From: Rhodohalobacter sulfatireducens
Lineage (GTDB): Bacteria; Bacteroidota; Rhodothermia; Balneolales; Balneolaceae
DNA: 49,975 nt
Direction of reading: 5' to 3'
Assembly (NCBI RefSeq): GCF_022012475.1
Contig: NZ_JAKLWS010000032.1
Location: 1-49,975 of the forward strand
Shown piece by piece: positions 156 to 14,737 of the stretch. Every line of letters begins with the position of its first letter. Within the stretch, counting starts at the first letter, position 1. The notes under the pieces were generated by a model. The model did no database searches, was not told the origin of the DNA, and saw nothing but the letters and a program-made list of their open reading frames with translations. The translations under genes and the position numbers were made by a program.

Positions 156-187
156 AACCCTTACGAGTATGGAAGCTCATAAGGGTT
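156..187 (-). terminator. Hairpin terminator of the original tRNA-Leu locus
   Basis: Same hairpin as at 26-57 (AACCCTTA 156-163 with TAAGGGTT 180-187), followed on the minus strand by a T-run. It sits just downstream of the 3' tRNA fragment at 197-257. It is probably the chromosomal terminator that served the tRNA before the element inserted (inference). Confidence 0.75.
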
Positions 188-192
188 ATGAA

Positions 193-257
193 AAAGTACC
201 GTGGGCCGGGCTCGAACCGGCACTGGCATTTTGATGCCAATTGGATTTTAAGTCCAA
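193..257. repeat. attL: left 65-bp direct repeat
   Basis: Identical to 7231-7295 over 65 bp. Identity ends at TCCAA (253-257), after which this copy continues AAAAAGG while the right copy continues CGCGTC into the 5' half of the tRNA. The breakpoint falls at the anticodon stem. Confidence 0.93.
197..257 (-). pseudogene. 3' fragment of tRNA-Leu(UAA) left by integration
   Basis: Reads on the minus strand from the anticodon stem-loop through the variable arm, T-arm (GGTTCGAGCC) and acceptor end, and is identical to the matching part of the intact gene at 7235-7322. The 5' half (acceptor, D-arm) is absent, so it cannot give a tRNA. It represents the original chromosomal 3' end displaced by the element. 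Confidence 0.9.
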
Positions 258-361
258 AAAAGGTGCATTTCATAGTATTTCAGGTTTATTGCAAAAAACT
301 GCCAATCCGTTGTAAATAAGCCGTTTAACCCTTACTTTAGATTACAGTTGAAACAACGTTC

Positions 362-393
362 ACGGCTTAAAATGTTGTGCCATTGTTGTGCCG
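362..393 (+). repeat. Left 32-bp subterminal direct repeat
   Basis: The 32 bp at 362-393 are identical and in the same orientation to 7123-7154, inside both ends of the element. Each copy holds two GTTGTGCC motifs exactly 11 bp apart (here 374-381 and 385-392), one helical turn. This is the layout expected of arm-type integrase or excisionase binding sites (inference). Confidence 0.85.
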
Positions 394-401
394 GGATCGC
401 T

Positions 402-409
402 GGCACAAC
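402..409 (-). promoter_or_regulatory. Inverted GTTGTGCC motif before the integrase gene
   Basis: GGCACAAC is the reverse complement of the GTTGTGCC motif found twice in the repeat at 362-393, and lies 24 bp before the integrase ATG. Two direct motifs plus one inverted motif just before int could let integrase or AlpA bind and repress int transcription (inference). Confidence 0.5.
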
Positions 410-433
410 AAAACCTGAATAAAATCTGTTACT

Positions 434-1651
434 ATGGAAACCGAAAAAAAACAGTTGAATCACAAACGTTTAAAATTCTATCCTAAACCAGACAAGAGAG
501 TTACTCTTACCGATCATGAAGTAGGTGGCCTTTCTGTTCGTATCTATCCATCTGGAAACAAGGCTTTTTACTACCGTTACCGATGGAATGATTCAGTGAT
601 TGATTACAAAGTTGGTGACTATCCAGATACCAGCCTCTCAGATGCCAGAGAGGAAGCGAGAGAATTAAAAGGCAAAGTACAGGATGGCTTAAATCCAATG
701 GCTGAAAAGAAAGCCAGGAAACAAGCTCCAGACGTTATCACAGTTCGCGATCTAATCGAAGATTTTAAAAGGGATTATCTGCCAAAGAAAAAAGCATCAA
801 CTCAGAGTTCATACAAAAGCAGAATCAATAAAATTGAAAAGAAATTTGGCAAAAAGTCCATTGAAGAACTTACCAGACGAGATGTAAAACGGTGGTTAAA
901 AAAAGTTGCTAAAAAACACCCTGTTAACGCCAATCGAATACAAGCTATATTTTCAAAGATTTATAGCTATGCAGTTAAAGAAGATTACACAAACAACCAT
1001 CCAATAAAAGGATTGGACAAGGTTGGTGGAAAAGAGAAAAACAGGGAATTGAACTACACTCATGATGATATTCGCAATTTATGGAATGCATTTGAGACAC
1101 AACGGGAACCGATGCAAAGCGTTTTAAAAATGCTACTTCTTACTGGCCAGCGATTAGGGGAAACATCCCGGATGAAGTGGAGGGATATTGACCAGCACAA
1201 TGCGTTATGGATTATTCCGAAAACAGAGACAAAAGGCGGTGAAACTCATATTGTACCATTAACTGAAATGGCTATTGAATTACTTGAAAATGTTCATCAA
1301 ATAACCGGAAAGAAAGATTATGTTTTTGCCAGTCCGAAAAAGGAAAATTCACCTTTAGCCTTTTTTGGCAATGTAACCGATCGAATCAGACCAATAGCAG
1401 AATTACCAGATTTTAAAATACATGACTTACGGCATATCGTAATTACCGGAATGATAAGTTTAGGCGTTGATATGGTTCATGTTGGTAAGGCCGTATCACA
1501 CAAAGGATTAGCCAAAGAGTATGCTATCACTAACCGATACAGCCATTATGAGTTTCTGGATGAAAAACGAAAAGCCCTGGAGCGTTGGAATTTCCATCTT
1601 AAAGAGATCCTGGAAGGTGAAACTGAAACGAAATTTTTCAAAATAGGGTAA
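434..1651 (+). CDS. int: P4-type tyrosine recombinase/integrase
   Basis: This 405-residue protein integrates and excises the element at tRNA-Leu. Residues 1-90 form the DUF4102-type arm-binding domain typical of P4-like integrases (GGLSVRIYPSGNKAFYYRYR). Residues 100-195 form the SAM-like core-binding domain. The catalytic domain shows R240 (TGQRLGE), H330 and R333 (HDLRH), H356 (VSHKG) and the probable nucleophile Y369 (NRYSHY). The length is normal for the family. It lies 176 bp inside attL and reads into the element, as is usual for islands that use tRNA 3' ends. The next gene starts 6 bp downstream, so they are probably co-transcribed. All catalytic residues are present, so the enzyme looks active. 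Confidence 0.95.
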   Translation: METEKKQLNHKRLKFYPKPDKRVTLTDHEVGGLSVRIYPSGNKAFYYRYRWNDSVIDYKVGDYPDTSLSDAREEARELKGKVQDGLNPMAEKKARKQAPDVITVRDLIEDFKRDYLPKKKASTQSSYKSRINKIEKKFGKKSIEELTRRDVKRWLKKVAKKHPVNANRIQAIFSKIYSYAVKEDYTNNHPIKGLDKVGGKEKNRELNYTHDDIRNLWNAFETQREPMQSVLKMLLLTGQRLGETSRMKWRDIDQHNALWIIPKTETKGGETHIVPLTEMAIELLENVHQITGKKDYVFASPKKENSPLAFFGNVTDRIRPIAELPDFKIHDLRHIVITGMISLGVDMVHVGKAVSHKGLAKEYAITNRYSHYEFLDEKRKALERWNFHLKEILEGETETKFFKIG

Positions 1652-1657
1652 AATGTT

Positions 1658-2215
1658 ATGAAGCCTACAAATTATAAAGAAACGGATCATTTTTTGGCTG
1701 ATGAATCTATTCCTTTAAATGAAAAAATAGACTATCTGGAATCGTTTATTATTAAGTATAAATCAGATTTAGGGGAACTCAGACAACAATACGATAACTT
1801 TAAATTTTATGGGCCGAATACACCATCTGATGATGATTTGGAGTTATGGGAGGGAGATATTGAAAAGGCTGAATTTCATCAGAAAGCCAAATGGGAAAGC
1901 AAGGTTAGAAGTATTGAAAGGCAAATAAAAAATAAAGAGAATGCTATTTATAAACTGAATGTAAAGCTGAAATACTATCAGAAACTTAAGCGAGATACTA
2001 ACGAAACTATAAATAGCTCTGTAAAGCCACACAAAGATGATATTTATAGAAAATATGGAGCCTTGAAGGGGGAATTTGGAGTTGATAATGCCTTTTACAA
2101 GCTATGTGATTGGATCAAGAATTTAGAATGTGATGTAGGTGTAACTGATTACATAAAAACGGACACTCCACAAAACTTTGATAAATCATATCGGGTATGG
2201 TTGAAAAGGAAATAG
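1658..2215 (+). CDS. Hypothetical coiled-coil protein
   Basis: No family is recognised for this 185-residue protein. It is highly charged and rich in Lys and Glu, and has a predicted helical/coiled-coil stretch at about residues 60-115 (EKAEFHQKAKWESKVRSIER and following). No signal peptide or membrane segment is seen. The ATG lies 6 bp after the integrase stop, so both genes are likely on one message, which could mean a role linked to integration or element maintenance (inference only). The AT-rich codon use fits the rest of the element. Confidence 0.7.
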   Translation: MKPTNYKETDHFLADESIPLNEKIDYLESFIIKYKSDLGELRQQYDNFKFYGPNTPSDDDLELWEGDIEKAEFHQKAKWESKVRSIERQIKNKENAIYKLNVKLKYYQKLKRDTNETINSSVKPHKDDIYRKYGALKGEFGVDNAFYKLCDWIKNLECDVGVTDYIKTDTPQNFDKSYRVWLKRK

Positions 2216-2306
2216 CTTTCCTAATTTTCGGAAACCCAATTCTCTAATCTTTCGCACCTCTTGCACTATCATTCAAGTGTAATCAATCGCAATAAACACT
2301 TGAAAG

Positions 2307-2516
2307 ATGGAAAATCAACTCTCAATAATTCGGCCATCCCAATTGGCTGAAATCCTATCTGTAAACCCCGTAACCGTTTGGAGAATGGAAAAACGGGGGG
2401 AACTGCCACCCCGGAAGAAAATTTCTAACCGCTGTGTAGGGTGGCTGGAATCTGATATAAGGGAATGGCTTGAAAACAGGCCCAATGCAACCGAACCCGA
2501 ACCCGCAACGGCATAA
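2307..2516 (+). CDS. AlpA-like helix-turn-helix regulator/excisionase
   Basis: This 69-residue protein has a MerR/AlpA-type HTH (QLAEILSVNPVTVWRMEKRG, about residues 12-31), a wing (ELPPRKKISNRCVGWLESD) and the C-terminal EWLENRP helix typical of AlpA/Xis proteins. In P4-like islands AlpA regulates int and may act as directionality factor. Small size and position after int fit that role. The GTTGTGCC motifs at both ends of the element are candidate binding sites (inference). The 91 bp before it hold a short AT-rich region likely to contain its promoter. Confidence 0.85.
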   Translation: MENQLSIIRPSQLAEILSVNPVTVWRMEKRGELPPRKKISNRCVGWLESDIREWLENRPNATEPEPATA

Positions 2517-2520
2517 AAAA

Positions 2521-2583
2521 GCCCGACTGTTGGAAGCAGTCAGGCAGGAAGCGACACTGTTTAAAAATAGTGAAATCGCTTCC
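2521..2583. other. Two adjacent inverted repeats in a short intergenic gap
   Basis: First hairpin: GCCCGACTG (2521-2529) pairs with CAGTCAGGC (2537-2545) with one mismatch, and the A-run just upstream would be a U-tract on the minus strand. Second hairpin: GGAAGCGA plus CACT (2547-2558) pairs with AGTG plus TCGCTTCC (2569-2583) with an AAA bulge. GCGACACT occurs in the second hairpin (2551-2558) and again directly before the next ATG (2605-2612). This could be a leader structure or a regulator-binding region for the gene at 2613. Confidence 0.6.
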
Positions 2584-2612
2584 GATATGCACATAATCAT
2601 TGAGGCGACACT

Positions 2613-2891
2613 ATGGATCAACAAACTTTCAATAACCAATTAGAAGAGACTAACAGAGCTTTTAGGAATGCACCAAAAACGATGAAGCAGGTTTCTGTTG
2701 AAACTGGTATCGACCGGCCAAATATCTGCCGTTACGTTGCATATTTGAGGAAACGAAACAAGATAGCAGTTGTAAAAAAAGACATTTGCCCGGTTACCAG
2801 GCATTCAGCTCAATTTTTTTCAACCGATCCCGAATTAATTCCGAAACCGGGTCAGGCAGAACTTTTCAAAGCTGAAAGGTGCAGAGTATGA
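2613..2891 (+). CDS. Winged-helix-like DNA-binding protein, unknown
   Basis: Residues 22-60 of this 92-residue protein read as a helix-turn-helix followed by a wing (MKQVSVETGIDRPNICRYVAYL then KRNKIAVVKKDICPVTRHSA), similar in style to small HTH proteins of Bacteroidota mobile elements. The exact family is not recognised. Its ATG follows the repeated GCGACACT motif by zero bases. Its stop overlaps the next start (ATGA), so the next gene is translationally coupled. Probably a regulator of the element (inference). Confidence 0.75.
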   Translation: MDQQTFNNQLEETNRAFRNAPKTMKQVSVETGIDRPNICRYVAYLRKRNKIAVVKKDICPVTRHSAQFFSTDPELIPKPGQAELFKAERCRV

Positions 2892-3631
2892 TAATCCCGG
2901 TTGAAATATCGCATTTCGCATTGAGTGAGGGTAAAGAATATCCCATTCATTGCTTTCACCTGCTAAAACACGTAACCCCCGGCCATACCTATTTGAACAA
3001 ACGTCAAATTTCCGTTTTAAGCGCTTATCTCAATCGAAGCAATAGAACGGTAAGGCGTTACCTTCAATATCTTGAGGGAATAGGCTGGATTGAGCCTAAC
3101 GGCAAGGTGCACGTGATTAAGTCCTGGAAAAAAGTATTTCACCAGATGGGATTTCGATATGTGATTGGTGTAGAAATCAATCCAAAGATTATTAAGAATC
3201 CACGTGCTTTTTTTGCAGGTGTAGTATTAGGCAGGCTTACGAACTTTCAAAAATATAAACGGAATAGCACGGGCAAGGGTAAGACCGCAATTTCAAGCCA
3301 CGGTGGTTCTGCCAGGCCCGGCTATTCCAATTATTTTCCCGTTGCAGATCGGGCATTGGCTTCAATTTTAGAAATAAGCAGATCGAAAGCAAATAAGCTA
3401 AAAAAACTGGCTAAGCTACATGGTTACATAGAATTGAAGTACAATTTTTATCCGTATGAACTAAATGGCAATTTCATCAAAATTGACAACCTGGATAAAC
3501 ATCTTTTCAGGAAAATATTTGAAGATGTTGGCCACAAAATGAGAATTGACAAGGCAGGCCGTGTAACGGTTCAGGATTCAGATTTAGTCCGGGCAAATTT
3601 GAAGTATAAAAAGAGCTGGAATTACCTATGA
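2888..3631 (+). CDS. Protein with two putative winged helices, possible replication or regulatory protein
   Basis: I chose the ATG at 2888, which gives 247 residues and an ATGA overlap with the upstream stop; an in-frame GTG at 2879 is the alternative. An N-terminal HTH (SAYLNRSNRTVRRYLQYLEG, followed by a short wing GWIEPNGKVHVI) and a second HTH near residue 158 (ALASILEISRSKANKLKKLA, wing YIELKYNF) are visible. Two winged helices in one protein recall replication initiators, but no initiator family can be named from the sequence. No nuclease or primase motif is seen. It is co-transcribed with the gene at 2613. The AT-rich region directly downstream (3632-3896) would be a natural place for an origin (inference). 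Confidence 0.7.
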   Translation: MIIPVEISHFALSEGKEYPIHCFHLLKHVTPGHTYLNKRQISVLSAYLNRSNRTVRRYLQYLEGIGWIEPNGKVHVIKSWKKVFHQMGFRYVIGVEINPKIIKNPRAFFAGVVLGRLTNFQKYKRNSTGKGKTAISSHGGSARPGYSNYFPVADRALASILEISRSKANKLKKLAKLHGYIELKYNFYPYELNGNFIKIDNLDKHLFRKIFEDVGHKMRIDKAGRVTVQDSDLVRANLKYKKSWNYL

Positions 3632-3896
3632 CAAAAAAAAGGCAATACATGTACCACATGTTCCAAGTACTCTAAAACTCATTAATAATACATCTGCATA
3701 AATGATGATTCAGAAAACAAATTATAGAGTGTTATTGGATATTAAATCCAATTGGAGTTAATCAATCAAAAAAAATTATTTTAATGTAAACTATTGATAA
3801 TAAACCGATTACAAATAAAACTGATTAAAGATTATTCAGAGACATTATTCTCTGGCACAACAATAACCCAACAAATAACTAAGTAAAACTAAGATA
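3632..3896. other. AT-rich intergenic region with an att-like core and an arm-type motif
   Basis: These 265 bp hold no gene. ATTGGAT (3734-3740) and ATCCAAT (3746-3752) form an inverted repeat around ATTAA. 3744-3755 (AAATCCAATTGG) exactly matches the tRNA-Leu anticodon arm used as att core, but on the opposite strand to attL and attR. GGCACAAC at 3854-3861 repeats the motif found at both element ends, and CAGAG/CTCTG flank 3838-3854. It may be a regulatory region, a second att-like site or an origin. Confidence 0.55.
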
Positions 3897-4616
3897 ATGG
3901 CTAAACCAATGGAACAGAAATCAGCAATATCAGAAATCCCAAAAACTCCGTTGCATTTGAAAGCGGAGGGAATCCGTAGCGAATTACCAGAAAATCTCAA
4001 AGTTAACTCAACGATTAGTACAGGACTGAAAGCTCTTGAAAAGGCAGATCAGATCATTCAGGAGACGTCGGAAACGATTCAGAAATTGAACCAGGATCGG
4101 ACCAGGAACTCGATTGATAAAAGGGTGACGGCATACGAATATTCAAGTAAGAAACTGGAAAAGATCCGAGACTTTGGGAGCCGGGCTGAGCGAGACCTTC
4201 GAGATGTAGTGAACTCCATAAACAGCCGAATAGAGGAAGGAATTGAAGATAACGCCTCGCGGAAGCCTCTTGCAAAAGAGACGCGAGCCCTCTTCCGTGA
4301 AATGGATGACTCCAAGAAACATAGTTTCCTGAACAAGGCCATCGACAGTGGTAAGTTTGAACTGGCTGAATATGTGCTTGGAGTACCTTCAGAATTGACC
4401 GGATTTGATGACGAAACACGAGACCGGTTTATCGAACACTTTAAGCAAACCAAGTTCAAAGATGAGATCGAAAAACGCGACCACATAAAATCGGTTGCAG
4501 ATAGTGTTGGACAACTTTCCAATTATTTTGGCCGGTATGTTCAAAAGTTGGACAACTACGAGGTTCAACAATCATTGAAGTTGAGAAATGACGTTGATAC
4601 AGCACTGAAAAGATAA
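3897..4616 (+). CDS. Hypothetical helical protein
   Basis: No family is recognised for this 239-residue soluble, charged protein. Residues 40-110 look like a coiled coil (ALEKADQIIQETSETIQKLN), followed by a more globular helical part to about residue 175 and a C-terminal helical tail. No signal peptide or membrane segment is seen. It has its own upstream region (3632-3896) and a strong terminator 17 bp after its stop, so it is probably a single-gene unit. It could be a structural or adaptor protein of a satellite-like element, but nothing in the sequence proves that. Confidence 0.7.
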   Translation: MAKPMEQKSAISEIPKTPLHLKAEGIRSELPENLKVNSTISTGLKALEKADQIIQETSETIQKLNQDRTRNSIDKRVTAYEYSSKKLEKIRDFGSRAERDLRDVVNSINSRIEEGIEDNASRKPLAKETRALFREMDDSKKHSFLNKAIDSGKFELAEYVLGVPSELTGFDDETRDRFIEHFKQTKFKDEIEKRDHIKSVADSVGQLSNYFGRYVQKLDNYEVQQSLKLRNDVDTALKR

Positions 4617-4632
4617 TGTTTTAGGCCAGGTG

Positions 4633-4670
4633 CCCGGTTGGGGTTATCGCACCTCAGCCGGGTTCTTTTT
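4633..4670 (+). terminator. Strong intrinsic terminator
   Basis: CCCGGTTGGGGT (4633-4644) pairs with ACCTCAGCCGGG (4651-4662) in a 12-bp stem with two G-T pairs, with hexaloop TATCGC and the T-rich tail TTCTTTTT. It ends the unit of the gene at 3897-4616. Confidence 0.9.
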
Positions 4671-4792
4671 AAGCTCCAGCCCCTCTAAACTAATTTTCAA
4701 GCGGGGGTATAATGATCCTATTTAATTGTTAAAAAACAGTTATTTACAATTATTTCAACCCTTGTTTGAATCGAACTTAATAGCATAAAAGA

Positions 4793-5047
4793 ATGGCAAA
4801 ATCTTATAAATACAGTAGATCCAGAAAGCCCCTCACATTAACAGAGGCAAAGCTACGCATGACTGACTCGATAAAAGCCATTGAGAAAATCGTACTTACC
4901 AGCGACGACGACGAGAAGCAGATCCGAAGCGCGTATGCAATGGCTGGGCTTATCGGAAAATATCAAAAACTAATCGAAACAACGGATCTTGTGGAAAGGA
5001 TCGAAAAACTTGAGCAAAATTATGAATCTATCAAACAGAGTAAATAA
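4793..5047 (+). CDS. Hypothetical small helical protein, first of a five-gene run
   Basis: This 84-residue protein starts basic (SYKYSRSRKPLTLTEAKLR) and continues with helices ending in a RIEKLEQNY coiled-coil motif. The pattern of a helix with a DDD turn and an E..DL.ERIEKLE end resembles small proteins found near packaging genes in phages, but this is only resemblance. It begins 122 bp after the terminator, so a promoter should lie in 4671-4792. The next gene starts inside its last 26 bp, so the two are coupled. Confidence 0.7.
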   Translation: MAKSYKYSRSRKPLTLTEAKLRMTDSIKAIEKIVLTSDDDEKQIRSAYAMAGLIGKYQKLIETTDLVERIEKLEQNYESIKQSK

Positions 5048-5405
5048 AATTGAAGAACAGGCTGGACTAAAGGATTTCTACCAGGAATCGTGCAACCTCA
5101 TATTTGATTTAATGTACCCGGCTGTTAATGAATACGAGCATTCACCAGCCATGACCAAAGAAGAGGCCCGGCAATGGATTCAAACGCGGAAAAAAATTCA
5201 TGAACATGAACAAAACTATCACCACGGCACATTCTTTAAATTAATGCTTGAACTTAATGACTGGATGCATGGTGAATTGTTAAGCGAGATAGCTCCCCGA
5301 TTTCCACAATGGCCCAATCATCTTAAGCCGTACCGCGATGAAATCGAATGTATACTTACTGCACACTTACTTCACAAACACGAACTCAAATTCTCAGAAA
5401 TATGA
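5022..5405 (+). CDS. Hypothetical protein, paralogue A of a tandem pair
   Basis: I chose the ATG at 5022 (127 residues) because it gives the N-terminus MNLSNRVNKIEEQ, which matches the next gene; an upstream in-frame TTG at 4989 is less likely. The C-terminal part WPNHLKPYRDEIECILTAHL plus HKHELKFSEI also matches the next gene. The middle (about residues 15-90) does not match and is rich in His, Glu and Trp. It overlaps the previous gene by 26 bp and the next by ATGA. The family is not recognised and no catalytic motif is evident. Confidence 0.75.
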   Translation: MNLSNRVNKIEEQAGLKDFYQESCNLIFDLMYPAVNEYEHSPAMTKEEARQWIQTRKKIHEHEQNYHHGTFFKLMLELNDWMHGELLSEIAPRFPQWPNHLKPYRDEIECILTAHLLHKHELKFSEI

Positions 5406-5716
5406 ACCTGAATAAACGCGTTGACAAGATCGAACAGAAATCAACCATAAATGAAACCTCTACATTTTTGGTAGTGACACTTGACGAAAAGGGTGTTCAT
5501 ATTCCAAATGAACCCCAGACCAGAGATAAGGCTATTCATGCCATTCGTAGAATGAGAACAGCCACAGGCCCTGCTAAAAGGTTAGTCTTAAAAGGTGTTG
5601 GTGTTGATGCATGGCCCGCGAACCTCTTACCGTACAAAGAAAGAACCAACGATGTTGTGGAAGCCTATTTAATGCATAAATTCAAAATTACAGAGGCAGA
5701 GATCAATGCAGTATAG
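5402..5716 (+). CDS. Hypothetical protein, paralogue B of a tandem pair
   Basis: The ATG at 5402 overlaps the previous stop (ATGA) and gives 104 residues with the N-terminus MNLNKRVDKIEQK. It shares with paralogue A this N-terminal helix and the C-terminal pattern WPxxLxPY, then AxLxHK and a final EI. The central part here (STFLVVTLDEKGVHIPNEPQ) looks like a short beta-hairpin and is unlike paralogue A. This suggests a duplicated adaptor with exchangeable middle (inference). It overlaps the next gene by 11 bp. Confidence 0.75.
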   Translation: MNLNKRVDKIEQKSTINETSTFLVVTLDEKGVHIPNEPQTRDKAIHAIRRMRTATGPAKRLVLKGVGVDAWPANLLPYKERTNDVVEAYLMHKFKITEAEINAV

Positions 5717-6098
5717 TAAAGAAGATATTGTCACAGTAGCACCCTCACGCGGTAGCTGGACCGGGATAATTATTCAGGTAACAACCATTGGCGACAGGTG
5801 GGCATATCTTGTCCAGCCTCTTGAATTATTTCATGAACCAGAGGCAGAAAAAGCCCGGACTGCTCAAACCGTTCTTGAAGATGAGATTGTTTCAGCGAAC
5901 CGAAATTACCCGGAATTTTCAGTTGGTGAACAGGTCTTTCTGTTTGGCCTTGCTGGAGAGATTAAAAGTATTAATGGCGACATTTACAGGGTTAAAACCC
6001 AAACTCCAAAGCGACATTATACACAAATACGTCACCACAATGTTTACAGGTGGCAGTTAATGATATGGAACTCCGATTTATACGAACCTCCAGCATAG
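5706..6098 (+). CDS. Hypothetical beta-rich protein
   Basis: The family of this 130-residue protein is not recognised. The alternating hydrophobic pattern (EDIVTVAPSRGSWTGIIIQV, then VGEQVFLFGLAGEIKSINGD and IYRVKT) suggests two small beta-barrel (SH3/KOW-like) folds. There is no signal peptide or membrane segment. It starts inside the last 11 bp of the previous gene and is part of the same operon. The barrel pattern would suit binding nucleic acid or protein, which is inference only. Confidence 0.7.
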   Translation: MQYSKEDIVTVAPSRGSWTGIIIQVTTIGDRWAYLVQPLELFHEPEAEKARTAQTVLEDEIVSANRNYPEFSVGEQVFLFGLAGEIKSINGDIYRVKTQTPKRHYTQIRHHNVYRWQLMIWNSDLYEPPA

Positions 6099-6137
6099 TA
6101 GAACCTAAAAAAACCTAAGATTTTGGAAACCTCAACT

Positions 6138-6362
6138 ATGCTTCAAATTGCAGAAATCCGGAAACTTAGAGCCAAAGCAATAAGGTGTATTCCTAACCCT
6201 TCCACAATCCTTCGAGAGATCGACAAAGCAGAGATTAAATACATCATTGAAAAGAACCATAAAGAAACCGGCGTCTGCTTACCTAAAATGCTTCGAGAAA
6301 CCTTAGCCAAAAAGTATAATTACAGTGAAAAACTTATTGAGAGAATAGCTTACGGTGGTTAG
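6138..6362 (+). CDS. Hypothetical small helical protein, last of the run
   Basis: The ATG at 6138 gives 74 residues (MLQIAEIRKLRAKAIRCIPN); an in-frame TTG at 6123 is the alternative. It is basic, helical and Lys-rich, with a possible HTH-like end (LRETLAKKYNYSEKLIERIA). It follows the previous gene by 39 bp on the same strand and converges with the zinc-ribbon gene at 6373. Function unknown. Confidence 0.65.
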   Translation: MLQIAEIRKLRAKAIRCIPNPSTILREIDKAEIKYIIEKNHKETGVCLPKMLRETLAKKYNYSEKLIERIAYGG

Positions 6363-6372
6363 CCCGATCTTA

Positions 6373-6828
6373 TCATTCTATTCTAAGCTCTAAGAGCTTC
6401 CAGTTATCTTCTGATGTTTGTTGAATCCTTGCAAAAAAAGGAGTTCGTACCATGGCGCCCATTTGGTTTTGAGAATCAACGTAGCTATCTATTTCATAAA
6501 TCTGATCTGGAAGTCTTGATATGTGATCCCGATACTCAAGCGTTCCGGGAAATTCTGCCGTTGACGGGCTTATCAATCTATCCTTTACCCAATTTTCAGC
6601 CATAATATAGGCCATTGTTGAATTATCCCGTTCGTTCCAAGGCTTTTCATTAGAAGAAGATTCAGGCCAAAAGTAAAACCCAGCAATAATAATGAACACT
6701 ACAATTAAGCATCCTATTGCAGATTCTTTTTCTTCACGTTCTTTTTTTATTGAATATCCGCAATGAGGGCAAGTATCTGCATCACTGCTAATTTCTCTTT
6801 CACATTCTTTGCAATTCACTAAAGCCAT
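6373..6828 (-). CDS. Zinc-ribbon membrane protein of unknown role
   Basis: This 151-residue protein has an N-terminal zinc ribbon (C6-x2-C9 and C20-x2-C23; NCKECEREI and DTCPHCGYS), a basic linker, one membrane segment at about residues 38-55 (AIGCLIVVFIIIAGFYFW) and a globular C-terminal domain of about 95 residues. The C-terminal domain should be outside the cytoplasm (inference). It is the only minus-strand gene of the element and ends 10 bp from the convergent gene at 6362. It could be an accessory (moron) gene affecting the host envelope, but no family name is certain for the C-terminal part. Confidence 0.75.
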   Translation of the reverse strand: MALVNCKECEREISSDADTCPHCGYSIKKEREEKESAIGCLIVVFIIIAGFYFWPESSSNEKPWNERDNSTMAYIMAENWVKDRLISPSTAEFPGTLEYRDHISRLPDQIYEIDSYVDSQNQMGAMVRTPFFARIQQTSEDNWKLLELRIE

Positions 6829-7122
6829 AATCCCCTCTTTTAGATAAGTGTTTATACCAACTGCAACATTAATTACTAAAAAACTGCTACTCTAAAAAAT
6901 TAGAATCCTTGAATATAAATTTTTTGGGGTACTTTCTGATTTTGAAGAGACGGAGGATAATAAGTAGCAAAAAAAAATTTTGTAAGGGATTCCGTTTTTT
7001 CGGTTCATACAAGTAATGATGAATAGTCCTGGCCGTGTGAGTTGATAGCTTGTACGGCCAATCTTTTTGATGCTCAATTTCCTTTACTTGGAGCGCTTAT
7101 AAAGAAATTCCAATATGTTTTT
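6829..7122. other. Intergenic region with no clear gene
   Basis: About 294 bp of AT-rich sequence between the zinc-ribbon gene and the right subterminal repeat. A 61-codon open frame on the minus strand (6892-7077) has no recognisable features. The part next to 6828 should hold the promoter of the zinc-ribbon gene. Nothing else is supported. Confidence 0.5.
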
Positions 7123-7154
7123 ACGGCTTAAAATGTTGTGCCATTGTTGTGCCG
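7123..7154 (+). repeat. Right 32-bp subterminal direct repeat
   Basis: Identical to 362-393, with GTTGTGCC motifs at 7135-7142 and 7146-7153. It ends 76 bp inside attR, whereas the left copy begins 104 bp inside attL. It is a probable arm-type recombinase/excisionase site (inference). Confidence 0.85.
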
Positions 7155-7190
7155 AAAAAGATATAGCCTATCATATCTACATGAAATAAA

Positions 7191-7230
7191 AAACCCTTGC
7201 AATCCATAAATCATTGAACTGCAAGGGTTT
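7191..7230 (-). terminator. tRNA-Leu terminator supplied by the element
   Basis: AAACCCTTGCA (7191-7201) pairs with TGCAAGGGTTT (7220-7230), and the A-run upstream reads as a U-tract on the minus strand. It begins 4 bp past the tRNA 3' end. The sequence differs from the left-end hairpin, so the element appears to bring its own terminator (inference). Confidence 0.85.
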
Positions 7231-7295
7231 AAAGTACCGTGGGCCGGGCTCGAACCGGCACTGGCATTTTGATGCCAATTGGATTTTAAGTCCAA
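7231..7295. repeat. attR: right 65-bp direct repeat
   Basis: Identical to 193-257. Beyond 7295 the sequence continues into the 5' half of tRNA-Leu, which is chromosomal. Confidence 0.93.
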
Positions 7296-7322
7296 CGCGT
7301 CTACCAATTCCGCCACCACGGC
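7235..7322 (-). tRNA. tRNA-Leu (anticodon UAA)
   Basis: The 88-nt class II tRNA starts GCCGTGG on the minus strand and ends CCACGGTA. The acceptor stem pairs with one G-U at position 1-72. The D-arm contains TGGTAGACGCG. The anticodon stem TTGGA/TCCAA encloses the loop CTTAAAA, giving anticodon UAA. A long variable arm (TGGC/GCCA) and T-loop GGTTCGAGCC follow. CCA is not encoded. The 3' 61 nt come from the integrated element and the 5' 27 nt from the chromosome, so the gene is intact and probably functional. Confidence 0.96.
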
Positions 7323-7435: not shown

Positions 7436-8773
7436 TTATGGAGTTCTCTTTCTTGCAACCAGGAAAACAGGAACTCCAACAGCAAGTACCGCAATACCCA
7501 CAAGGGCTCCCATCCCGGTAAAGGCGAGACTGGAATAGAGCATGTAGGAGCATGCAAGAAGGAAAAGAATCGGTGTAACGGGATAAAGTGGTACTCGGAA
7601 GGGCAGAGAATCTTTTCCTGATCGGGCACGAAATATGAAGAGTGTAATGGTTGTCAGTAAAATAAAAAACCAGAACACGGGAGCTGTATAATCAACCATT
7701 GTACTTACAGCTTCCTGGGACCAAACACCTAAACCGACTAAAATTAAAGCAATAATTCCCTGAACTATTAAGGCATTTGAGGGAGTGTTATTATTTTCAC
7801 TCCACTTTCCTAAAAAACGCAGCAGTTTAAAATCACGCCCTAAAGCATAGTTTGTTCTTGCTCCCGTGATGATTGTGGCATTGGCCGTTGAAAGTGCAGT
7901 TGCTATGACAATAAATGCCACAATCAGCGAGCCTTCAGTACCAAAGATACGATCGGTCAGGTCAGCCCCGACGGTTTGCGAATTTTGAAGAGCTTCCAGT
8001 CCCATAACATGGAGATAGGCAACATTTACTAGTACATATAGCCCGGTTATGATTACGATTCCGAACAGAAGTACTTTCGTCATATTCCGTTTAACGTCTT
8101 GCAGTTCTCCCGATAGATATACTGCTTCGTTCCACCCTCCATAGGTTAACAAGACAAAAATCATGGCAGAGCCGGCAGCACCACCTGTAAATAACCCGTC
8201 ATCAGAATTTGACAAGTCCGGTAGTGATTCAGCCGGTGCAGAGAACAAACCGGAAAGTGCGAGAAGTATCAGCATCAATACAATTAAACCTGTAAAAAGG
8301 TTTTGCATTCTGCTGGAATGATGAGTGCCAAGTAAGTTAAGTCCGGTCAGAACAATAATTGTTATAACAGCGTAAATCGCTGAACTGTTAGGCCCCAGGT
8401 CAAGAATGAGGGAAGCATAATCACCCAGGATAAAAGCAATCAAAGCGATGGAGCCGGTTTGAATGACGGTCATACGCCCCCAGGAAAAGAGGAAACCAAC
8501 CGGTGCACCAAATCCTTGTGTCAGGAAGTGATACTCACCGCCGGCATCCGGTTTTGAGGATGCGAGTTCGGCATAGCACAAAGCGCCCATCAGGGATATG
8601 AAACCACCGGCTACCCAGAAGGATATAAATTGGAATTCATTCGCAGAATTTGCGGCCACGATGGGAGGGAGGCGGAATATTCCAATCCCCACAACAATGC
8701 CCACCATTACGGCTACGGAGCTTAGAGTTGTAAATGTGGGGAGTGGTTTATTTCCCGAAAGAGTCTTTTCCAT
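7436..8773 (-). CDS. APC-family amino acid permease
   Basis: This 445-residue inner-membrane protein with about 12 membrane segments takes up or exchanges amino acids. It begins with the APC signature of TM1 (VAVMVGIVVGIGIFRLPP, the GIGIF unwound helix) and has a conserved ALCYAELASSKPDAGGEY region, typical of APC transporters of the LAT/polyamine type. The substrate cannot be told. Its ATG overlaps the stop of the upstream methyltransferase gene by one base (TAATG), so the two form an operon. Length is normal. Confidence 0.9.
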   Translation of the reverse strand: MEKTLSGNKPLPTFTTLSSVAVMVGIVVGIGIFRLPPIVAANSANEFQFISFWVAGGFISLMGALCYAELASSKPDAGGEYHFLTQGFGAPVGFLFSWGRMTVIQTGSIALIAFILGDYASLILDLGPNSSAIYAVITIIVLTGLNLLGTHHSSRMQNLFTGLIVLMLILLALSGLFSAPAESLPDLSNSDDGLFTGGAAGSAMIFVLLTYGGWNEAVYLSGELQDVKRNMTKVLLFGIVIITGLYVLVNVAYLHVMGLEALQNSQTVGADLTDRIFGTEGSLIVAFIVIATALSTANATIITGARTNYALGRDFKLLRFLGKWSENNNTPSNALIVQGIIALILVGLGVWSQEAVSTMVDYTAPVFWFFILLTTITLFIFRARSGKDSLPFRVPLYPVTPILFLLACSYMLYSSLAFTGMGALVGIAVLAVGVPVFLVARKRTP

Positions 8774-9663
8774 TAATCACTCAGCGTTGCAGACCATTCT
8801 TCAATTGATTGCGCATCTTTAGTATGAACCTGGACAGTTCCACTGACGGTATGATTCTCTACAACACCGCTGTAGATATATCGGGTATTGTTTTCTTCAT
8901 CCATTACAATCAGATTGATCCGCTTGCCCTTGAGAGTAGCTTCCTCAGTTATGAGAGAACGATTTCCGCTATTCAACTCTACGCTGATTTCCTGGAATTC
9001 CTGTTCAGCATTCATGGAAAAATTTTCTCCGTTGATGCTCCAATTCCAACTTCCATCTATATCAGCAGGTATAATCCAGAAGTAAAGATCGCGATTTGCA
9101 ATCTCCACGGATTCATCGGGTCTCCACTCACCCATATCAAAACTATGTGAAACAACTCGTGTACCCGGTTCAAGATTCTCCAGCAGTGAAGGACGTAATT
9201 CCAGGTTTACAGAAGTTAGAAGGTAAAGTGTGATGACGGAAGCCTGGCTGAAGTCGGTTTCAAAGATATCGCCCTGCATAAACATAATCCGATCACTCAC
9301 GCCTTCTGTTTCAGCATTCTCCCGTGCTTCTGCAATCCGTTCAGGATCGAGATCAACCCCATGGCCGACCGCACCGCGTTTGGCCGCTGCAATTACAATA
9401 CGTCCGTCACCTGAACCCAGATCAATTACATAATCACCAGGTCCAACATCAGCCATGTCAAGCATTCGTTCAAGTACATCGTTGGGAGTGGGTACATATG
9501 GTACATCAAGGTTCTGTGCATTCAATTGAGAAAAGAAGAACAAGAGTAACACAGGTATCAAAAATACGGATCGTTTTATGCTGTTCAACTTTCTGATGCG
9601 TAAGATCACATCAACTATAAAATTTTTCTCTTCAAATGTGGAGTGTTTCTTTCTTGTATTCAT
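8773..9663 (-). CDS. SAM methyltransferase-like protein with signal peptide
   Basis: This 296-residue protein has a basic, Lys/Arg-rich N-region and a hydrophobic segment ending LNAQ (about residues 30-50), which looks like a signal peptide or anchor. Residues 50-190 form a class I SAM methyltransferase fold: motif I VIDLGSGDGR, an acidic GVDLDPER, QGDIFETD, and the ending GTRVVSHSFDMGEW. Residues 200-296 look like a beta-sandwich domain. The family is known and often carries a leader; its substrate is unknown. It overlaps the permease start. An export signal on a SAM-dependent enzyme is odd and is treated in the findings. Confidence 0.85.
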   Translation of the reverse strand: MNTRKKHSTFEEKNFIVDVILRIRKLNSIKRSVFLIPVLLLFFFSQLNAQNLDVPYVPTPNDVLERMLDMADVGPGDYVIDLGSGDGRIVIAAAKRGAVGHGVDLDPERIAEARENAETEGVSDRIMFMQGDIFETDFSQASVITLYLLTSVNLELRPSLLENLEPGTRVVSHSFDMGEWRPDESVEIANRDLYFWIIPADIDGSWNWSINGENFSMNAEQEFQEISVELNSGNRSLITEEATLKGKRINLIVMDEENNTRYIYSGVVENHTVSGTVQVHTKDAQSIEEWSATLSD

Positions 9664-13477: not shown

Positions 13478-14737
13478 TCATCCAATCGTCATTTTTCTAT
13501 TACTAAACCCAAAGTAAGCTACCACGAGAAAGCAGATCATCGGGATGAAAAAGGAGAGATGAATACTGCCGCTGATATCGGAAACTTGTCCCTGGATAGC
13601 CGTTAATACCGCTCCCCCCAGAATTGCCATAATCAAGCCGGATCCGGCAATCTTTCGGTCCTGGCCCAAGCCCTGGGAAGCCAATCCAAATATGGTTGGA
13701 AACATTAGCGACATGCAACCCGAAATTCCAACAAGGGCAAGTACGCCGACAAATCCTCCCACAAAAATAACGATAAGTAAAAATCCAACAGCTACGAATG
13801 CGCTCCAAATTAAAAGAATGGAACCACGGAAACGTTTGAGCAATCCCGTAAATGCAAATCGCATGACGGTAAAAAGAATCAAAGCCGCTAAATAATAATT
13901 CGAAGCGCCACTTTCATCAAGACTCAGTTCAGCCATCACATAGCGAATTGTGTACGACCAAACTCCAATTTGTGCTCCCACATAGAAAAATTGTGCTACC
14001 ACTCCCCATTTGTAATTAGAGTTTGCAAAGAGTTTTTTCAGGGAATCTCCAAGATGGATGCTCTCGGTATGATGTGAAAATGTGGGCATTTTTATAACTG
14101 AAATTGTTACCCAAATGACAAGAAGCAAAAGAGCAACTCCCACATAAGGACCCATTACCGCTGATAACTCCTGTTGCTGCATGACTTGCAATTCCCCCGC
14201 ACTGAGTCCGGCGCGGGCGGTGGCGTCGGCTGTATTCAGGTTTTCGAGGATAAAAAATTTGCTCAGCAATACTCCTGAAATCGATCCGATTGGATTGAAT
14301 GCCTGAGCAAGGTTGAGCCGTTGCACGCTGCTTTCATCCGATCCCATCGCCAAAATGTAGGGATTCGCTGTTGTTTCAAGAACGGATAACCCGCCGGCGA
14401 GGATAAACAGGGCTGTTAAAAAATGTCCATAAACCATCGTTTGGCTGGCAGGGTAGAAGAGTAGTGCTCCCAGAATGAAAAAGCCCAAACCAAGAAGAAT
14501 GCCCGATTTATAGGTGAATTTTCTGATGAATATAGCAGCCGGAAGGGCAAGGCAGAAATAGGAACCATAAAATGCCACCTGGATCCATGAGGTCTGGAAA
14601 TCAGTCATACTCATGATGCGCTTGAAGGCAGCGAGGAGCGTATCCGTCATATTATTGGCCAGTCCCCACATAAAAAACATGCTGGTGACAAGGATAAAGG
14701 GGATCAGGTATTTTCTTTCAACAACGGAGCTTCGCAT
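13478..14737 (-). CDS. fucP: L-fucose:proton symporter
   Basis: This 419-residue MFS permease with 12 membrane segments imports L-fucose. It is typical FucP: an N-terminal FFMWGLANNMTDTLLAAFKR segment with the conserved Asn-Asp-rich TM1 end, ETTANPYILAMG in TM4 and LNLAQAFNPIGSISG in TM5. The context of a complete L-fucose catabolic set strengthens the call over other FucP-family hexose carriers. It lies between the dehydrogenase and mutarotase genes, with palindromic modules on both sides that may modulate its message (inference). Confidence 0.92.
   Translation of the reverse strand: MRSSVVERKYLIPFILVTSMFFMWGLANNMTDTLLAAFKRIMSMTDFQTSWIQVAFYGSYFCLALPAAIFIRKFTYKSGILLGLGFFILGALLFYPASQTMVYGHFLTALFILAGGLSVLETTANPYILAMGSDESSVQRLNLAQAFNPIGSISGVLLSKFFILENLNTADATARAGLSAGELQVMQQQELSAVMGPYVGVALLLLVIWVTISVIKMPTFSHHTESIHLGDSLKKLFANSNYKWGVVAQFFYVGAQIGVWSYTIRYVMAELSLDESGASNYYLAALILFTVMRFAFTGLLKRFRGSILLIWSAFVAVGFLLIVIFVGGFVGVLALVGISGCMSLMFPTIFGLASQGLGQDRKIAGSGLIMAILGGAVLTAIQGQVSDISGSIHLSFFIPMICFLVVAYFGFSNRKMTIG

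Follow-up and report, generated by a model that had tools for sequence, protein, structure and literature searches.

Several groups of phage satellites have been described that resemble the subject of this analysis, a 7,038-bp island in the Balneolaceae bacterium Rhodohalobacter sulfatireducens (RefSeq assembly GCF_022012475.1, contig NZ_JAKLWS010000032.1). P4-like satellites are characterized by a P4/CP4-type integrase with an arm domain, an AlpA-like protein, a tRNA-Leu target and the sid, psu, delta and alpha genes. PICI and SaPI elements contain an integrase, in some members an AlpA-type regulator, a replication gene and genes that redirect packaging, with a terS homolog being typical, and cf-PICI carry their own capsid and terminase genes. 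The PICMIs (phage-inducible chromosomal minimalist islands) of the Vibrionaceae (PMC10803314) sit beside fis, encode a primase but lack any packaging gene that could be identified, and use AlpA as their switch. The window, i.e. the whole stretch of 49,975 nucleotides that was analyzed (G000:C64:1-49975; G denotes genomes compared, C contigs and L extracted loci), begins at the first base of its contig. The island within it contains the genes int, o2, AlpA, o4, o5, o6, o7, o8, o9, o10, o11 and o12 in this order and is best read as an integrated phage satellite, a reading that is given a probability of roughly 0.6 and that involves a putative helper phage, a proposed diversion of packaging and a suggested role for the small protein o7. 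An initial annotation of the stretch had described a clean insertion into tRNA-Leu that recalls phage satellites and is devoid of phage-related genes; the mobile island and its likeness to satellites were retained, whereas the clean insertion and the lack of phage-related genes were not.

With the P4-like satellites, the island shares the CP4-type integrase with its arm domain, the AlpA-like protein and the tRNA-Leu target; however, neither alpha, sid, delta nor psu is found among its Pfam and PHROG matches, which stand here in place of a direct comparison with P4 proteins. The PICI and SaPI likeness comprises an integrase, an AlpA-type regulator, a replication gene and packaging-redirecting genes, the island's counterparts being putative, but o7 has no homology to TerS and for the other gene families the likeness is one of description. 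PICMIs (PMC10803314) are likewise very small and combine an integrase, AlpA and a replication gene in the absence of capsid genes, whereas the island lies in tRNA-Leu and not beside fis, has no recognized primase and contains a block from o6 to o11 with phage or terminase neighbors elsewhere. Tycheposons, which are also treated in PMC11389934, are likewise small, tRNA-linked elements of marine bacteria with a tyrosine recombinase, a likeness of description and not of sequence. A literature search covering mostly titles and the beginnings of abstracts, and few subscription papers, returned no report of such elements in this bacterial group.

The island is bounded by exact 65-bp direct repeats, as had been noted initially, and its length corresponds to the spacing of the two copies. 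The left attachment (att) copy (193-257) consists of the 3' part of tRNA-Leu on the chromosome side, while the right copy (7231-7295) lies within the intact tRNA-Leu(UAA) gene (7234-7322, minus strand), the integration target, and extends 3 bp past it. As the right copy is itself the 3' part of the tRNA, the gene remains whole; it is the sole tRNA gene detected in the window by ARAGORN. The integrase gene is located at the opposite, tRNA-distal end and is transcribed towards the tRNA, which amends the initial annotation. The G+C content of the 6,973-bp interior amounts to 38.5% versus 40.9% for the remainder of the window. Judged from these sequence features, it is as good as certain that the island is an integrated mobile element. 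Its left side is nevertheless not clean, being disturbed by the contig end and by a unit comprising a tRNA-Leu 3' fragment and a terminator hairpin, which is present at 17-82 and again, 97% alike, at 147-212. Such tandem copies of about 130 bp, which also include a GC-rich stretch, are likewise present at the end of contig C44 of the same genome (L006, 1-143), and perhaps represent remains of earlier insertions. Positions 1-74 of C44 match positions 1-74 of the window exactly in reverse orientation; because of this overlap and the synteny with G005, C44 is the likely left neighbor of the window, though the overlap falls in a repeat.

Besides the exact repeats, the satellite reading draws on the integrase, the AlpA-like protein and a set of arm-type sites. 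The int gene (434-1651, plus strand) encodes a tyrosine recombinase of 405 aa with Arm-DNA-bind_3 (2e-18), core-binding and catalytic Phage_integrase (1.8e-21) domains in Pfam, a PHROG integrase match (5.3e-68) and sequence-profile matches to structurally characterized integrases, namely lambda Int and CP4-like ones. Residues R240, H330, R333, H356 and Y369, which we take to be catalytic, are invariant across six aligned sequences including that of the window, and the integrase is apparently intact, in agreement with the initial annotation. The AlpA-like excisionase/regulator of 69 aa (2307-2516, plus strand), also recognized at that stage, matches Phage_AlpA at 3.8e-9 (36.7 bits, cut-off 21) and the excisionase family phrog_2790 at 3.9e-13; by analogy with the PICMIs, it may act as the switch of the island. 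The word TGTTGTGCC occurs six times in the window, always within the island (starts at 373, 384, 402 on the minus strand, 3854 on the minus strand, 7134 and 7145), where 0.25 copies are expected, and none of 100 shuffles yielded six or more. Two pairs with starts 11 bp apart (373-392 and 7134-7153, plus strand) lie near the two island ends, a placement that suggests the arm sites of an attP, and comparable pairs are found in other elements. Single inverted copies precede int (402-410, minus strand) and o6 (3854-3862, minus strand); since they share a 27-nt similarity (78%, with 397-423 on the int side), these sites may also serve as operators. Words common to both ends were sought in 10 of the 13 elements with defined ends, without a chance control, and comprised paired TGTTGTCCC in L048 and L020, TTGTAACC in L079 and TGTTACCCC in a 15-kb element of G030, repeated GTGTACCA in L023, and shorter words in L075, L076, L081 and L100.

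A terminator scan detected a terminator-like hairpin (7191-7230, minus strand) that separates the att core from the remaining element DNA and lies downstream of the tRNA gene, and a second, different one (156-187, minus strand) past the far att copy. By eye, the elements of G099, G030 and G041 likewise showed a T-run hairpin following the tRNA in element DNA and a further one past the far copy, and the tRNA-side hairpins were similar to those following tRNA-Leu in G012, G019 and G020. As the geometry of integration makes the tRNA-side hairpin element DNA, the element appears to bring its own terminator to the tRNA gene, an observation made on the two window hairpins and on L099 8850-9940. In G005, both hairpin types are present in opposite order, for which there is no full explanation. 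In L079, the far att copy (13946-14030) is still called tRNA-Leu by ARAGORN despite its differing 5' part.

A full set of virion genes is absent from the island, as judged from its open reading frames and from Pfam and PHROG matches, and packaging and capsid genes appear as the context of its relatives. In L100, the TerS and TerL genes are enclosed by a relative of o6 (239 aa, 3897-4616, plus strand; 25%, 3e-17) before them and a relative of o11 (79 aa, 6123-6362, plus strand; 45%, 1.7e-15) directly after TerL; protein comparison places a further o6 relative in L101. A relationship of o6 to a 185-aa coiled-coil family of other elements was rejected (HHalign 0.7%). A phage link is provided by o10 (130 aa, 5706-6098, plus strand), as two phage contigs carry a homolog of it directly behind their major capsid gene. 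One of them, in G081:C16 (33%, E 1.6e-15), overlaps the end of the capsid gene by one base. This capsid protein (Pfam Gp13-like 2e-10; PHROG major head protein phrog_247 2.6e-81) is of the SPP1 gp13 kind, with 39.9% identity to that of SPP1, and the contig also bears genes for a tape measure, a Mu F-like protein and a head-tail adaptor. An identical capsid gene is present on an IMG/VR contig that is listed as a virus and has the same length as the G081 contig, 36,358 bp. On the metagenomic virus contig L105, 57 bp separate a capsid gene of 50% identity from the start of the second homolog (40% over 67 aa, 8.6e-12). Structure prediction from three sequences yielded a mainly beta fold for o10 (mean pLDDT 82), predicted to consist of tandem SH3-like barrels; its nearest folds are tandem SH3/Tudor domains, a generic likeness (best E 0.0046; viral library 0.0036). 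The cargo, initially thought to be without recognizable function, thus includes several genes with informative relatives in neighboring genomes, and the phage or terminase neighbors of o6, o10 and o11 correct the claim that phage-related genes are lacking.

Viral sequences were compared as 84 loci, each stretch covering at most about 21 kb; the int profile found 419 relatives in viral contigs, of which 80 were kept. BLAST of the island proteins against these loci identified five AlpA-like genes and both o10 homologs in addition to int relatives, while profiles of 11 families detected nothing in them. As single queries, neither o10 nor the TerL of L100 had a match in viral contigs, int had none in viral or genome contigs, and the phage homolog of o10 had none in 50,697 phage records. 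The best viral int relative among the 80 kept (55%) opens a 47.5-kb contig and is followed by a gene that by eye resembles a Mu-type transposase (L114 1-5566).

The small protein o7 (84 aa, 4793-5047, plus strand) occupies the place that the terminase takes in L100. It has a basic N-terminus followed by a helical hairpin, with helices predicted at 16-36 and 40-83 (mean pLDDT 87, five sequences). A search of 244 genomes of the class returned 18 matching genomes at E <=0.05, of which only the ten below 1e-6, the own genome and nine others, were used; with o7 in 10 of 244 genomes, the gene set is not a stable core, a possibility that had been raised against an insertion. Besides the start, E31, E62, R69, L73 and E74 are kept in the alignment of ten sequences. 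The o7 profile detected at least four loci in genome contigs, and relatives are present in records of Rhodohalobacter halophilus and Fodinibius salsisoli strains, whereas o7 was found neither in 50,697 phage records nor, singly or as a profile, in viral contigs. Its list of structural matches includes the small terminase of phage 44RR (E 1.7) and a phage capsid domain (E 1.1) amid unrelated hairpins. It is the position in the gene order that makes o7 a candidate packaging factor.

Relatives of the island were collected by searches with int (58 genomes), o5 (128), o7 (244), o10 (128) and o6 (128). Both ends could be defined for 13 elements of the order, including that of the window, and comparison was extended to 18 stretches by adding L080, L045, L051 and L044 (no end defined) and L077 (cut by the contig end); L021, L022, L024 to L031, L046, L047, L049, L050 and L052, found by int or o5, were left out. 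Gene families were assembled across these stretches by profile iteration at E 1e-3, in which members added late depend on those recruited before them. Ten of the bounded elements reside in tRNA-Leu genes (UAA, CAA or GAG), two in tRNA-Val (L078, L101) and one in tRNA-Asp (L020). They span 4.9 to 15 kb with repeats of 15 to 72 bp, the end being less certain where the repeat is shorter than 20 bp (L074, L075, L078, L100, L101), and each of the 13 has int at the end opposite to the intact tRNA.

The gene order varies around this layout. L048 (Fodinibius salsisoli, by identity with L085) contains int, AlpA, o4, o5, the 185-aa coiled-coil family, a 78-aa family and o7; L079 contains int, AlpA, o4, a helix-turn-helix (HTH) protein, a BT4734/PriCT-2 primase, the 185- and 78-aa families and o7, and the same order without an AlpA match is found in L075 and L076. 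In L074, L078 and L081, int is followed by a D5-type helicase, a DUF6371 protein and o7; the primase, helicase and DUF6371 domains were seen by Pfam for L074 and L079 only. L101 combines a D5-type helicase, a DUF6371 protein, o6, a 186-aa protein (best PHROG of unknown function 2e-5; best named PHROG TerS, 0.0032) and a possible o9 relative. Terminase genes are present in L100 (int, o6, TerS, TerL, o11) and L023 (int, AlpA, DUF3987, a primase-like gene, TerS, TerL), with Terminase_3 matches of TerL of 1.4e-12 for L023 and 5.7e-13 for L100 and phrog_309 matches of TerS of 3.8e-8 and 4.8e-14, respectively. Inspection by eye of the lists of open reading frames of these two elements, only part of whose proteins were scanned, revealed neither a portal nor a capsid gene. 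With their own TerS and TerL these sister elements resemble cf-PICI, unlike the island, in which no terminase or capsid gene was recognized by Pfam or PHROG; no relative of the G081 capsid protein was found in the 18 stretches, capsids being diverse. Neither o7 nor TerL is present in L020 or in the 15-kb element of G030 (L053/L019, G030:C4:1934298-1949418). The latter encodes an integrase with 53% identity, a DUF2280 protein (7.8e-30), kinase-like genes and a protein of 1,095 aa that by eye resembles a tape-measure protein (no Pfam match; PHROG matches to a family of unknown function at 8.5e-9 and to a tail protein at 0.025). In L051, the integrase is split into two adjacent reading frames (8194-9390), so this element may be inactive.

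Close relatives were searched for an unoccupied site. The permease next to the tRNA (7436-8773) has close orthologs in two of 27 congeners, G012 (80%) and G005 (78%). In G012, tRNA-Leu lies beside the same permease with no second 3' copy in an 18-kb stretch, and the island is absent; the tRNA is followed by a terminator-like hairpin and an unrelated gene, and this flank differs from that of the own genome. In G005, the permease contig stops within the tRNA gene, whose remainder is found at the end of a second contig, and seven proteins of this second contig are 71-90% identical to proteins of C44. No island protein matched the G005 tRNA stretch, and a degraded second copy of the tRNA 3' part lies about 1 kb before the contig end. 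Both flanks therefore meet at the tRNA without island genes, and the locus may hold a different element: the break between the contigs falls precisely at the end of the repeat, as an assembler would produce with a duplicated repeat, for which reason G005 was rejected as an empty site; the satellite reading does not depend on this genome. The initially proposed check of relatives for an empty tRNA-Leu site was thus borne out in part, by G012 on the permease side, while its other flank differs and the break in G005 leaves room for another element. There is no close copy of int in the 27 congeners (best 42%, G012), and the island is best taken as an insertion that is not wholly clean.

Two further genes may act in replication. 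The 92-aa protein o4 (2613-2891, plus strand), found in 6 of the 18 stretches including the window, is winged-helix-like (MarR_2 0.0034, under its cut-off). The 250-aa HTH protein o5 (2879-3631, plus strand) is a possible replication initiator: it sits where other elements carry primases or helicases and has HTH_11/HTH_36 matches of about 1e-3, under the cut-off, and a DnaD-like loader match of 0.0014. No primase family was recognized by Pfam among the 13 open reading frames of the island, o5 giving only weak HTH matches. For a satellite, the following course can be proposed. From the anatomy of paired arm sites flanking a tRNA-derived core, Int would recombine a lambda- or P4-like attP into the 3' part of tRNA-Leu, after which the tRNA gene would have a terminator of element origin. 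The AlpA-like protein, activated by a helper phage, would excise a circle together with Int, and o4 and presumably o5 would start its replication. The tRNA-proximal genes o6 to o11 would then divert the packaging of a tailed helper phage, with o7 taking the part that TerS-TerL play in the sister elements and the capsid of the helper as the target of o10.

Several observations weigh against this course of events. Homology of o7 to TerS was rejected on PHROG, HHalign and structure searches: the 16 PHROGs that match its ten members do so at E 0.004 or worse and have no description, comparison with the TerS family of L100 and L023 gave 0.1% in HHalign, and the hairpin fold is generic (best PDB E 0.57). 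That o7 and TerL never occur together in the 13 bounded elements is weak evidence for a replacement, as with eight and two carriers this has a 13% chance by hand calculation, and six of the eight o7 carriers came from the o7 search itself. Among phages, L106 and L107, with 35% capsids, have no o10 homolog, and the int, AlpA-like and o10 relatives that are the only ones found in viral contigs never occur alongside another island gene. A resident helper was not seen in the own genome, where Terminase_6N had no match (control matches in 6 of 14); the phrog_247 capsid search in 28 genomes of the genus was uninformative, its control matching in 0 of 14. Lastly, L045 (G068:C22) combines an integrase of 37% identity and homologs of AlpA and o5 with a MobA/VirD2 relaxase (1.2e-23), a NikA-like protein (1.1e-9) and a ParA-type ATPase (AAA_31, 2.5e-53). 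Because of this cousin, a conjugative route remains a rival, in which the island would be an integrative mobilizable element conjugated in trans via an oriT recognized by the relaxase of another element. Such a route is considered unlikely, since none of the 13 island open reading frames encodes a relaxase or another mobilization or conjugation protein by Pfam, the relaxase of L045 has no relative in the other 17 stretches, and o6, o10 and o11 have phage or terminase neighbors.

It is less probable still that the island is a decayed prophage of which int, a regulator and some genes of the head region are left. The homology of o10 to a capsid-adjacent gene would fit such an origin, as would the lack of a recognized terminase or capsid gene; however, 12 other elements, whose replication modules differ, have the same compact size and end layout, and the proposed genes (with starts chosen by us) fill 82% of the interior, remains of structural genes having been looked for within open reading frames. 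The least probable of the alternatives is an autonomous integrative element that spreads by chance transduction and has a cargo for protecting its host from phages. The best PADLOC match among 10 of the 12 proposed proteins was 7.7e-4, to the AlpA-like protein, which speaks against it, even though the small size, the confinement of o2 to this island among the elements compared, the accessory o12 and the kinase-like and toxin-antitoxin-like genes seen by eye in some relatives (two kinase-like genes being related) would suit it.

The remaining genes of the putative satellite are less informative. The 185-aa protein o2 (1658-2215, plus strand) has no homolog in the 18 stretches by Pfam and family comparison. 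The o8 gene (5022-5405, plus strand; frame open from 4989, ATG at 5022) encodes an N-terminal RVxKIE motif, and o9 (5402-5716, plus strand; frame open from 5348, ATG at 5402) is its paralog; outside the own genome, a search of 128 genomes with o9 gave nothing better than E 0.004, its possible relative in L101 having been reached via the iterated profile only. The zinc ribbon protein o12 (UPF0547, 7.5e-8; 6373-6828, minus strand) is accessory cargo with 51% identity over 82 aa to a gene in L025.

Taken further, though rather doubtful as a whole, the comparison would point to a single chassis in the order of the Balneolaceae, consisting of int, AlpA or another HTH protein and an initiator or primase, with swappable transfer modules: a terminase (L023, L100), a relaxase (L045) or the tRNA-proximal o7 module, which would then be an undescribed, TerS-unrelated way to make a helper package foreign DNA. 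The 13 bounded members, which belong to a single order of environmental bacteria, have defined ends, share recurring genes and have terminase- or relaxase-bearing cousins, would make it testable how a satellite changes its mode of transfer by swapping one gene block, and o7 provides a small conserved candidate packaging factor unlike known ones. Should the satellite reading be wrong, the family would still exemplify one set of integrase, AlpA and initiator genes that is combined with quite different transfer genes.

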